Position numbers and translations under genes: made by a program | The notes under the pieces: model-generated | What the model was told of the DNA's origin: nothing | The model's input: the letters and a program-made list of their open reading frames with translations, nothing else | Databases searched by the model: none | Shown here: positions 44,601 through 47,674 of the stretch, piece by piece | Position numbering within the stretch: position 1 is the first letter of the stretch | Layout of the letters: each line of letters begins with the position of its first letter | Origin: an uncultured Mycoplasmatota bacterium | GTDB taxonomy: Bacteria; Bacillota_I; Bacilli_A; RF39; UBA660 | Direction: 5' to 3' | Assembly (NCBI GenBank): GCA_947643405.1 | Contig: CANRVY010000007.1 | Coordinates: 1-55,730 of the forward strand | Length of the DNA: 55,730 nucleotides

Positions 44601-44816
44601 GATATGGATAGTGATATAGAGTTTCATGGTATAATTGACTTGTTGATCGAAGATCAAGATATATGTTACATTATTGATTATAAACTAAAGAATATTGAGA
44701 AGGTATCTTATCAAGAACAAGTAAAAGGATATAGGAAAGTAGTAGAAAAAAGGCTAGGAAAAAAAGTGAAAGGAATTTTATATTCTTTGCTTGATGAGAC
44801 ATATAAAGAGGTATAA
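41580..44816 (+). CDS. addA: ATP-dependent helicase/nuclease subunit A (AddA/RexA)
   Basis: 1078 aa. UvrD-type helicase: Walker A SAGAGSGKT (residues 29-37), motif Ia TFTKAAAFEM, motif II IDEYQDTN, motif III GDIKQSIYRFR, motif V NLMTIHKSKGLEY, motif VI RIRVFYVALSRAKEK. C-terminal nuclease with GIIDLLIE and YIIDYKLKN. Forms AddAB with the upstream product, resecting breaks. ATG 41580 is favoured over GTG 41571 because AGGAGGTG (41566-41573) overlaps the GTG. Ends in a strong terminator. Confidence 0.93.
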   Translation: MIPIKPANATWTDEQWEAIYKDGNNIIVSAGAGSGKTAVLTERIIEKLKRGVSISSLVVLTFTKAAAFEMKTRVRKKIKKEIENGNKSLEKELEKIDSAAITTFDSYSLSLVKKYHYLLGIKKDIGIADNIVLGMKKKELIDDVFHNFYQRKDLGFLKLLDTFTIKDDDKMKSICLKLNDSLESIAHKKEYLDTYLEKYYEESFIEEKVKQYEKILGNEKEEILSLLVDLKSNVNHPVGIEFVLRVGEVLEPLYACASYDDYKVISTISLPSFTRSKKIEEQELLKMKEIYDSLKEHFIRLKELCIYEDRVSLKSSIYDTRETVETLISILKEFDKELFDYKKKESLYEFSDIGRLAITLLEEHPFIANQIKENTNEIMIDEYQDTNDIGDYFISLIADHNVYMVGDIKQSIYRFRNANPSIFMDKYSSYSIHQNGEKIDLNKNFRSRKEVLEDINFLFEKFMDHEIGGADYKSGHAMVFGNEEYEKGGKTVQNYHFEILDYQYKEMEYARTYRPEEIEAFIIANDIQKKVESHYQVYDKDNHELRNIAYNDFSILLDRKTSFDLYKKIFTYLGIPLLIHKDEDFVYSDEIFVIENMMKWIYSILDFNYAKDHLQYSVMSVSRSFVADIKDEELFEFFMTHKDNFQESLNLNSSPVYELHQKMQLLAEYSKTHTLSELLNQIYQEFDMYQAILKLQNIEFLSIKLDYLLDVSRNLEKMGYQIFDFIYYLEEAIKGETDITFSRNQEADSNSVNLMTIHKSKGLEYHICYYAGLGKKFSKADLKDRFLFDQKFGFIVPHFDEGIRENFYKELLKEEWNKEDISERIRVFYVALSRAKEKMIFVTNLSDKETTSFNDFVDSKTRLKYKCFYDILLSIKSKLKPYIIPCSLDNLLLTKKYEQLKETNYESLLEKSNQKSNYINLSIQKKKLEEKTFSKSYHIVDEKEQDRLDLGIRLHECLQYVDYNHIEESLEKMELSNFEYQKLKAFFKADFWSKLKSPIFYQELEIIDMDSDIEFHGIIDLLIEDQDICYIIDYKLKNIEKVSYQEQVKGYRKVVEKRLGKKVKGILYSLLDETYKEV

Positions 44817-44818
44817 AA

Positions 44819-44852
44819 AAACAAATGTATATTTTAAAACATTTGTTTTTTT
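44819..44852 (+). terminator. Terminator of addBA
   Basis: Perfect 9-bp stem (44819-44827 with 44840-44848) with T tail; its symmetry lets it stop leftward transcription too, including from the minus-strand promoter at 44907-44934. Confidence 0.85.
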
Positions 44853-44881
44853 ATTGAATTAAGAACTCAAAGTAGAATACT

Positions 44882-44911
44882 TTGAGATTTATCTCTGACA
44901 CGTTATATAAT
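44882..44911 (+). promoter_or_regulatory. Candidate rightward promoter of the AAA+/VWA-like pair
   Basis: TTGAGA 44882-44887, 18-bp spacer, TATAAT 44906-44911. The -35 lies in the left palindrome. Transcript would have a leader of about 125 bases containing the right palindrome. Confidence 0.55.
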
Positions 44912-44934
44912 ACCATTTTTTACCAATTTGTCAA
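44907..44934 (-). promoter_or_regulatory. Candidate leftward promoter within the inverted-repeat segment
   Basis: On the minus strand TTGACA (44934-44929), a 16-bp spacer and TATTAT (44912-44907), pointing away from the AAA+ gene into the addA terminator. If the segment flipped, this promoter would face the AAA+ gene with a leader of about 50 bases. Confidence 0.5.
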
Positions 44935-45045
44935 ACTAAATTTTTTTAAAGTCTATTTTAGTCTATTCTCGTTTTTTATTATTTGCTTTCTCAAAAATAA
45001 TTATTCTTCGCAAAGTATTCTACTTTGAGAAGAGTGGGGGATATT

Positions 45046-46785
45046 ATGGAATATAGTGAAAAAACAGGAAAATGGTTTATTGTATATAAAGGTACGGATA
45101 TTAATCTGAATGATATTGTTAATGCTCTTAGAAACATTTGTCCACAGTCTTATACTGTAAGATCAAAAACAGGGAATAATTTAATTTTTTCTAAAATAGT
45201 TTATGCTGATTATGAAGATGATCGAGATCCGCATTGGGAAGGTGATACTGGAATTCTCACTGTTAATGGATATGTTCAATCAGAAATTAAAAAAGCTGTT
45301 GGCGTTTATTCGAAGTATCATATTAATGACGAAGATAAATATCAACGTCTTACCAATTATATGTATCGTGAATATAAAACAGGTTTTTTTGAGAAACTAA
45401 AATCCTATATGCATTTTTGTTCTGCTGTTTGGGATAGAGAAGCGAATTCACTGATTGCTGGTGTTTCAGAACCAATAAATGAATTTACACATTTATATTA
45501 TGGTTATACAAGAAGAAATTCTGAAGTTATGTTTTCTAATAATGCAGGATTATTGAAACAATTTTGTGATGAAGTAAAGGAAATGGACAGTAATACTTAT
45601 ATGAAAGATGGGAAGCTTTTTACCTTGGAGGGGGAAGAAGTAAAAAAAGATACAACACTTATTAAAAATACTAGAGAGAATGCAAACTTTTTAATAGAAG
45701 GGTTAAATTCATTGCTGATACAGGTTACAAATGAATCAGTTAGAACAAAAATTGAAGAAAATGTAGAAGCTTATTTGTTATCACAAGATCCTAAAAAAAA
45801 GATAAGTGATTATGTTTTTAATGAATTGGATAAGGAACTTAAGACTCAGATTTTACAAATCATAAAACAAACTATAGAAGAATATAGTGTGGAGCATGAA
45901 ATCACGACACAATTAAATGAACTCTTTGATGAAAAACTAAGTGATTATGCCAGTCATATAACGGTTCCAATCACTCATATTATTAAGTTAAATGATGTTA
46001 TTTTGGGACAAACTAAGGGCGGATTTTATCATGAAAAATTTGAGCAGATATTAACGCAAATCCAATTAGATGAACCAATTATGCTAATTGGACCAGCAGG
46101 AAGTGGAAAGAATGTTGCGATATCTCAAGTAGCAGATGCTTTAGGTTTACATATGTATTATACCAATAATGCATCTAATGAATTTAAATTGACTGGTTTT
46201 ATTGATGCTGGAGGGAATTACCGAGATACTGAATTTTATAAAGCATTTAAAAATGGTGGTGTTTTTTTCCTAGATGAAATTGATAATTCTGATCCATCTG
46301 CACTCATTGTAATCAATTCTGCACTTGCAAATGGATATATGGCATTTCCGCATGAAACAATTGATAGACATCCAGACTTTAGAATTATAGCAGCAGCAAA
46401 TACTTGGGGAAAGGGAGCAGATTTACAATATGTTGGAAGAAATGCATTAGATGGTGCCACTTTAGATCGGTTTGATAATATCTTCTTTGATTATGATCAA
46501 AAATTAGAACAAGCGCTATATCCAAATGATGAAGTCTTACAATTTATGTGGTCATTTAGGAATGCAGTTTATCAATCTAAAGTTCCTCATATCGTTTCAA
46601 CTCGTGGAATTGGAAAAGTATATAAAAAAGAAATTAATGGTATTCCTGCGTCTTATATTTTAACTTCTAATGTTATCAAAAATCTTGGTCAAGATGATAT
46701 TAATGTGATCATTGGAAATATGCAAGATATTTGTTCTGATAACAAATTTTATGAAGGTATTAAACAGTTGAGGCTTAGTAGATAG
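45046..46785 (+). CDS. MoxR/CbbQ-type AAA+ ATPase with novel N-terminal region
   Basis: 579 aa. Residues 1-300 are unrecognised, with a charged helical stretch at about 225-310 likely to be coiled coil. The AAA+ core follows: Walker A GPAGSGKN (349-356), Walker B FFLDEID (Asp410, Glu411), sensor AAANTWGKG, then GRNALDGATLDRF with the arginine finger, as in MoxR/CbbQ/GvpN-type AAA_5 proteins. These remodel a partner, often a VWA protein, and the next gene fits that. ATG 45046 has GTGGGGGAT upstream; an in-frame start at 45025 would lie in the palindrome. Candidate conflict/defence module. Confidence 0.8.
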   Translation: MEYSEKTGKWFIVYKGTDINLNDIVNALRNICPQSYTVRSKTGNNLIFSKIVYADYEDDRDPHWEGDTGILTVNGYVQSEIKKAVGVYSKYHINDEDKYQRLTNYMYREYKTGFFEKLKSYMHFCSAVWDREANSLIAGVSEPINEFTHLYYGYTRRNSEVMFSNNAGLLKQFCDEVKEMDSNTYMKDGKLFTLEGEEVKKDTTLIKNTRENANFLIEGLNSLLIQVTNESVRTKIEENVEAYLLSQDPKKKISDYVFNELDKELKTQILQIIKQTIEEYSVEHEITTQLNELFDEKLSDYASHITVPITHIIKLNDVILGQTKGGFYHEKFEQILTQIQLDEPIMLIGPAGSGKNVAISQVADALGLHMYYTNNASNEFKLTGFIDAGGNYRDTEFYKAFKNGGVFFLDEIDNSDPSALIVINSALANGYMAFPHETIDRHPDFRIIAAANTWGKGADLQYVGRNALDGATLDRFDNIFFDYDQKLEQALYPNDEVLQFMWSFRNAVYQSKVPHIVSTRGIGKVYKKEINGIPASYILTSNVIKNLGQDDINVIIGNMQDICSDNKFYEGIKQLRLSR

Positions 46786-46822
46786 TATGTATAGATATTA
46801 TAAAAAGGGTGAATTAGATGTT

Positions 46823-47674
46823 ATGGAATATTCATTTGGTTCTTTGATTGAATTTATTGAATATTTAGATCATACACCAACCAATTCTAGCATTTGGGGA
46901 TATAGAGATTTGGAAAGTGAAACAGGGAATTTTGATTTTTGTCAAACTAGATCTTTAAAGGAAGCCAAAGAATTTTGTAAGTATGGATATCATGAAAATT
47001 TTGATAAGCTAGTTGAATTAAAAACCTCTTTAGAAAAATATATTAAATTATCTAGAAAAAGAAGTCAGCAATATAATTTTTATGTCGGTTATGCTCCAGA
47101 TGTAAAAGCATATTTAGAAGGAAATCCTCTTTCTATGTTGAACAAGCAAAATCCCAAAAGAAGACACATTGACATATATTATAATTCTGCTATTTTAGGT
47201 TATGTTTCAACTGGTCAGATTTATAATCGAGGAGCAATTACATTATGTCTTGCTGAAATTTTAGAAAATATGGGGTTTACTGTTGGACTAAACCTCTTTA
47301 CGATGTCTGAAAAAAATGGACAAATTCATTACGCAAAATTTCATGTGAAACATCCCGGAGAAAGATTAAATATACAAAAATTATACTTTCCTTTATGTAA
47401 TCCTTCATTTTTAAGGCGACTTGTCTTTCGATTAAGAGAACAAACTCCAGATATTAAAGCTTCTTGGACAAAGGGATATGGTTCTACTTCTGATGATTAT
47501 ACAATTCGAAGAATCATTGATTTAAAAGATAATGATATTGTCATTTGTCAGCCAAGTGAAATGAATGTACAAGGACATGATATTGTAGATGATGCCAATG
47601 CTATGTTTCATTATATAGATCGATTTACAAGTGATGAAATAGAGCTTGCCCATGTGAAACGCTTACAAAGATAA
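46823..47674 (+). CDS. VWA-like partner protein (DUF7192-like)
   Basis: 283 aa. The core (about 75-240) begins NFYVGYAPDVKAYLEGNP and RRHIDIYYNSAILGYVS, then NRGAITLCLAEILENMGFTVGL, and ends DIVICQPSEMN. The strand-helix order resembles a VWA fold whose metal site (DxSxS) is degenerate; phage-type partners of MoxR-like ATPases (DUF7192, from memory) look similar. ATG 46823 has GGTGA 10 bases upstream; ATG 46787, one base after the ATPase stop, gives 12 more residues and is possible through coupling. Co-transcribed with the ATPase; strong terminator follows. Confidence 0.65.
   Translation: MEYSFGSLIEFIEYLDHTPTNSSIWGYRDLESETGNFDFCQTRSLKEAKEFCKYGYHENFDKLVELKTSLEKYIKLSRKRSQQYNFYVGYAPDVKAYLEGNPLSMLNKQNPKRRHIDIYYNSAILGYVSTGQIYNRGAITLCLAEILENMGFTVGLNLFTMSEKNGQIHYAKFHVKHPGERLNIQKLYFPLCNPSFLRRLVFRLREQTPDIKASWTKGYGSTSDDYTIRRIIDLKDNDIVICQPSEMNVQGHDIVDDANAMFHYIDRFTSDEIELAHVKRLQR

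Follow-up and report, generated by a model that had tools for sequence, protein, structure and literature searches.

The locus studied here, within a 55,730-nucleotide stretch of DNA (the window, on contig C7 of genome G000), raised the question of whether a short segment in front of genes for an AAA+ ATPase and a VWA-like partner is a promoter that can be inverted or a promoter controlled by two looped operators. We conclude that this segment (44866-45029) is very probably a site-specific invertible promoter, and we infer its flipping, the identity of the enzyme and the effect on expression from the anatomy of the segment, the matching of the cores in its arms, linkage to a recombinase gene and the orientation of related segments between genomes. 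Genome G000 (1.55 Mb, 57 contigs) was compared with relatives that are gut Bacilli MAGs, and all genome-wide counts were obtained by pattern searches for the palindrome and for its paired form.

Arms and interior of the segment

The left arm (44866..44886, forward strand) has the form CTCAAAGT-AGAAT-ACTTTGAG (whole arm, CTCAAAGTAGAATACTTTGAG), and the right arm (45009..45029, reverse strand; CGCAAAGTATTCTACTTTGAG) is an inverted copy of it with one mismatch in 21 positions and the same 5-bp core. The arms are 122 bp apart, making a segment of 164 bases in total, and each encloses the palindrome CAAAGTA-N3-TACTTTG, which occurs in its perfect form in the window at these two sites only. When the window was resampled 20 times with a first-order Markov model, no inverted repeats of 21 nt with at most one mismatch arose over a similar range, compared with one in the real window, namely the arms themselves.

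The interior between the arms (44887..45008), which would be the inverted portion, is assembled in what we refer to as the OFF orientation. It contains a strong promoter on the reverse strand, directed away from the gene, with a TTGACA -35 element (44929..44934) and an extended TATTAT -10 element (44907..44912, with TGG in front) at 16-bp spacing. The segment also has a weak gene-directed TTGAGA-18-TATAAT sequence on the forward strand (44882..44911; TTGAGA at 44882 and TATAAT at 44906), which shares positions both with the arm and with the leftward -10 element read on the opposite strand. By eye, the spacing of this pair is unconserved in orthologues, at 17 to 19, or the pair is absent altogether. 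As judged from its sequence, the rightward pair is a by-product of the arm plus the reversed -10 element.

On the addA side, a terminator-like bidirectional hairpin (44813..44854) lies between that gene and the left arm and would block transcripts produced in the OFF orientation from reaching addA. On the other side, the right arm is followed by a ribosome-binding site, GTGGGGG (45034..45040, forward strand), and by the first switch-controlled gene, which encodes an AAA+ ATPase of the AAA_5, MoxR/CobS/NorQ-like type (45046..46785, forward strand; ATG at 45046), and then by the gene for its partner, a DUF7192 protein with a VWA-like fold (46787..47674, forward strand). Short inverted repeats thus surround a promoter directly before a gene, as in known invertons. 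The arms, spacing, palindromes and both promoter-like sequences reported in the preliminary description were all confirmed, as was the placing of the segment between the addA terminator and the ribosome site of the AAA+ gene. The proposal that inversion would aim the stronger leftward promoter at the gene also held when computed from the sequence, as the -10 element would move to 44983-44988 and be directed at the gene, with a 5' leader of ~51 nt.

Upstream of the -35 element there is in addition a direct repeat, AGTCT-N5-AGTCT (44950..44964), whose copies are one helical turn apart, and GACT words resembling it were seen by eye upstream of the -35 element in other switches. This repeat is a possible activator or accessory site.

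Related switches and the cores of their arms

Exactly four arm pairs were found in the genome, in the window on C7 and at C23:38-199, C3:52200-52364 and C3:53589-53761, and each of the four segments holds a TTGACA...TATTAT/TAGAAT promoter. The promoters are OFF in the window and at the genes p284 and p381, and ON at C23. The genes behind the other three switches are a gene for a 348-aa protein (C23), p381, and p284 together with an Amidoligase_2 gene, the latter two switches being at the locus of a recombinase gene. A model of the 348-aa protein, whose family is unassigned, was all-helical and too weak for a structure search (pLDDT 72.5, pTM 0.54). At 0-1 mismatch, no single palindromes were found at other promoters in the genome beyond the switch arms and one hairpin. 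That hairpin, CAAAGTATACTGCTTTG, is an arm-like sequence at the end of the switch-controlled p381 gene (G000:C3:52389-52405) and is followed by a T-run, resembling a copy of an arm that has the form of a terminator. The exact CTCAAAGTA-N3-TACTTTGAG site was not found in IMG/VR viral contigs.

Arms across eight genomes all fit CTCAAAGT-N5-ACTTTGAG, that is, an 8-5-8 arrangement. At least 10 different 5-bp cores were present (AGAAT, AAGAT, AAAAT, AAAAG, AATAT, TTTTC, GTTTC, ATGAA, AATCT, ACATT and AAATC among them), and the core varies by locus yet is the same, in inverted sense, in both arms of a pair. When all arm pairs at 130-160 bp were taken, with the core ignored in their selection, the cores matched exactly in 17 of 19 pairs, compared with a mean of 2.2 and a maximum of 9 in 10,000 permutations. 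Of the two unmatched pairs, one joins an orphan arm, an extra one present in L059, to the neighboring switch, and the other (L012) looks like chance. The rule extends to the switch of the AAA+ gene itself, with cores of AGAAT in G000, AATAT in G001 and ATGAA in L059, each matched within its pair. Because recombining sites need matching cores and repressor operators do not, the identity within pairs favors recombination. Moreover, since the cores differ between species and are identical within pairs, the two arms would keep each other identical.

Segments were also compared for their orientation. The C23 segment is ON in G000, G001 and G002 and OFF in G005 (C19), where the terminator and left arm are the same as in G000 and G001 and the interior is inverted (62/77 positions identical to G000 when inverted, versus 29/46 in direct sense; 64/77 identical to G001 when inverted); the flipped copy could stem from a close relative present in the bin, as G005 has an estimated contamination of ~5% and its contig with the C23 gene is 99% identical to G000. 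Within G000, the interior of the AAA+ segment is homologous to that of the C23 segment, and the two lie in opposite sense relative to their genes (91/126, inverted). In addition, 5 of 18 switches had a contig end within or adjoining them, relative to 0.53 expected (~10-fold, P ~1e-4), in a test that was post hoc and made on MAG assemblies, and contig G005:C43 starts exactly where an arm does. Mixed orientations in the reads would produce such breaks.

Gene-directed promoters with one arm or none were found at the homologues of the AAA+ gene (L063) and of the C23 gene (L176) in G003 and at p284 in G410. Based on their sequences, these promoters look like switches that have become fixed ON.

Candidate recombinase and alternative explanations

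Three genes for tyrosine recombinases (PF00589) were identified in the genome, two of them weakly matched by the third. This third gene encodes a protein of 359 aa (G000:C3:53775-54851) and is at the C3 locus, where one switch separates it from p381 and the second separates p381 from p284. The gene is intact, and its translation shows the catalytic residues R...K...HxxR...H...Y. Its closest solved relative is the integrase of Tn1549 (6en0, E 1.3e-19), and the 8-5-8 arms conform to the half-sites around 5-7 bp that are used by enzymes of the Tn916/Tn1549 type.

Among 60 relatives, orthologues of the C3 recombinase (76-83% identical) were found only in G001, G002, G003 and G005, in the same or nearly the same surroundings, and a 57% identical relative was found in G008. 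Switch pairs are present in the genomes with an orthologue. The recombinase gene adjoins two switches in G000, G001, G002 and G005 and one in G003, and the relative in G008 has two switches beside it. In another species (L059/G410), a 72% identical orthologue directly adjoins the AAA+ switch itself on its upstream side, which is the strongest tie between the C3 enzyme and the segment in the window. No close orthologue was found in the relatives that carry operators in place of a switch. The cognate recombinase is thus present and linked to the sites, with one exception, G409, in which a switch-like pair (L112:471-620, ON orientation) occurs without a close orthologue and would be either a locked relic or the target of a different enzyme.

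Based on these data, the C3 tyrosine recombinase is the most likely driver of the switch, an assignment that we consider probable. It would bind the 8-bp half-sites CTCAAAGT and ACTTTGAG of each 21-bp arm, and strand exchange across the 5-bp core AGAAT would invert the 122-bp interior. As assembled, the strong promoter with the extended -10 element is directed away from the AAA+ gene and the operon would be OFF; after inversion, transcription would start ~51 nt ahead of the AAA+/DUF7192 operon, which would be ON. The same enzyme probably drives the other three switches in the genome. As each locus has its own, private, core, flipping at each would be independent, with no exchange between loci.

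The findings above bear in different ways on the proposal that the two palindromes, near the promoter and in the leader, respectively, are both bound by a repressor dimer, which represses by looping the DNA, so that nothing inverts. Each arm is itself palindromic, the arm spacing is regular (135-155 bp), and in relatives that lack the switch the same promoter is indeed covered by palindromic operators in pairs, all of which would suit such looping. However, those operator pairs have by eye no common core (e.g., GTTATTAAC-ATATT-GACAATAAC with GTTATTAAC-ACAAC-GTTAATAAC), unlike the arms here; in addition, the strong promoter is directed away from the gene, the C23 segment is present in both orientations between genomes, and it is a recombinase, not a repressor, that is linked to the sites. 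The preliminary description had reasoned that many single palindromes at other promoters would favor operators, and the genome has no such scattered copies. We consider looping highly improbable. In contrast, the invertible promoter gained strong support from the comparisons that the preliminary description had proposed, as these revealed the opposite C23 orthologue in G005, four switches in the genome, and a dedicated tyrosine recombinase adjoining two of them.

Two further explanations accept the arms as recombination sites. The segment could be inverted by another enzyme, such as XerC/D or a serine recombinase, as the genome has 11 PF00239 (serine recombinase) matches besides the two other PF00589 genes and the arm pair in G409 has no close orthologue of the C3 enzyme. 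Serine invertases have sites with a 2-bp centre, and the odd symmetry of 8-5-8 arms is that of tyrosine recombinases of the Tn1549 type. A serine invertase is unlikely because the arm symmetry is odd and linkage to the switches is lacking, whereas such linkage exists for the C3 enzyme in six genomes apart from L059, and in L059 it is to the switch of the window itself; a different recombinase of any kind is thus an unlikely driver. The other explanation is that of a former switch locked OFF, in which the arms were kept and recombination was lost. The four examples of the AAA+ switch that were examined (G000, G001, G005 and L059) share the OFF orientation, and locked derivatives exist at other loci. 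We regard this explanation as quite unlikely, as the arms and core have been kept exactly in pairs even though the core differs between species, and an intact recombinase is present.

An invertible promoter of this type is already known from other bacteria, and it is the layout of shared arms with private cores, together with the targets, that is less usual. The RecV switches of Clostridioides difficile (cwpV, flg and cmr) similarly have one tyrosine recombinase for several short switches, which are scattered, lie in promoters or leaders and are bordered by inverted repeats of ~20 bp (PMC5903667, PMC9286219). Most C. difficile inverted repeats are unrelated to one another (PMC5903667), whereas here there is one consensus in which the core alone varies, and the targets also differ, being here the AAA+/VWA-like pair, an amidoligase and uncharacterized genes. 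Mpi of Bacteroides fragilis is likewise a master invertase for many promoters, with at least 13 regions according to the account cited in PMC5903667, but it is a serine recombinase with seven polysaccharide loci among its targets, while the switches here have a tyrosine recombinase and intracellular-looking targets. In the Tn1549 Int site, a crossover region of 5 bp lies between two AT-rich repeats of 11 bp, and the Tn1549/Tn916 integrases use AT-rich inverted half-sites around a crossover region of 5-7 bp (PMC5871717), a layout similar to that of the arms here. Those integrases mobilize a transposon with little homology, whereas the C3 gene has as its neighbors short chromosomal switches whose cores match exactly; no transposon genes were seen adjoining it. 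No description of this switch set and its targets was found in the literature, in a search that reached few subscription papers.

The switch-controlled genes and a link to NAD metabolism

The preliminary description had named the genes behind the switch an AAA+/VWA-like pair, and this naming proved apt. The first is AAA_5 by Pfam, and it has the Walker motifs GPAGSGKN and VFFLDEID of a MoxR-type ATPase. An AlphaFold2 model of the DUF7192 protein (pLDDT 78.9) had the NorD VWA domain as its top match both in Foldseek (E 3.9e-3) and in VIA-align (Z 8.3, 185 aligned, rmsd 6.0), a match that is moderate. The MIDAS motif DxSxS was not found in DUF7192, and as the first core strand reads HIDIYYNS the protein is VWA-like rather than a canonical MIDAS protein. 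Because an AAA_5 protein is paired with a NorD-VWA-like fold, a mode of action like that of a MoxR/VWA chaperone is probable for the two proteins. The order of an AAA_5 ATPase followed by a VWA-like protein is that of NorQ/NorD, RavA/ViaA and the MoxR-vWA pairs of jumbo phages, from which the DUF7192 pair differs in its lack of a visible MIDAS and in its link, in relatives, to the control of NAD biosynthesis. Homologues of the AAA+ protein on viral contigs are 43-46% identical over part of the protein only, and the gene is thus not evidently a prophage gene.

In several relatives without the switch, the AAA+/DUF7192 pair is under a fixed promoter with paired GTTATTAAYATAATGWTAATAAC operators. 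These operators recur at operons for a nicotinamidase-like isochorismatase, nicotinate phosphoribosyltransferase, NAD synthase, a NadD-like cytidylyltransferase, an ADP-ribosylglycohydrolase and CinA, and in L068 a NAD synthase gene is directly after that of DUF7192. The common operators and this adjoining gene tie the pair to NAD metabolism in the switch-less relatives, and this is the first functional clue for the pair that could be found. As far as could be found, the GTTATTAAYATAATGWTAATAAC-linked set is an undescribed NAD regulon. In the two switch-lineage genomes searched, G410 and G412, the operator was not above background.

The system offers a very probable case of multi-locus promoter inversion in an uncultured family of gut Bacilli in which the enzyme, the 8-5-8 private-core site rule and the targets can all be read from sequence. 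Whereas such switches usually act on surface structures, the targets here are the MoxR/VWA-like pair and the amidoligase operon, with a sigma factor added in relatives, which suggests that chaperone-like or stress functions are being hedged. We speculate that in these bacteria a genus-level regulon for bet-hedging is run by one Tn1549-type recombinase, that the private core serves as an address for each promoter so that loci flip independently and never cross over, and that in this lineage the NAD-linked AAA+/VWA-like chaperone pair was moved from the operator control seen in its relatives to random on/off switching; this joint reading is tentative and somewhat less likely than not.

Other genes were observed behind the switches. 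A sigma-70-like factor of 509 aa (L110:4912-6441) and a 459-aa relative (L122:1682-3061) are directly behind switches in G008 and G003, and are possibly phase-variable sigma factors. In G003 (L111:3457-7019), a switch is followed by a GNAT acetyltransferase gene together with genes for a 398-aa protein and an ABC exporter. In its C-terminal portion, p381 (L036:3422-4567) bears a weak resemblance to the Thoeris inhibitor Tad4 (E 5.5e-5, which falls short of the curated cut-off), and PADLOC defence profiles gave no convincing match to the switch-controlled proteins.

Paired GTTATTAAYATAATGWTAATAAC operators, linking the AAA+/DUF7192 pair to NAD-biosynthesis operons, were seen in L060, L064, L066-L068, L072, L074 and L159-L166. 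At L163:11491-12597, a PRPP-synthetase-like gene is in one operon, with a GTTATTAAYATAATGWTAATAAC operator, together with the NadD-like, ADP-ribosylglycohydrolase and CinA genes, and it may belong to ADP-ribose recycling.
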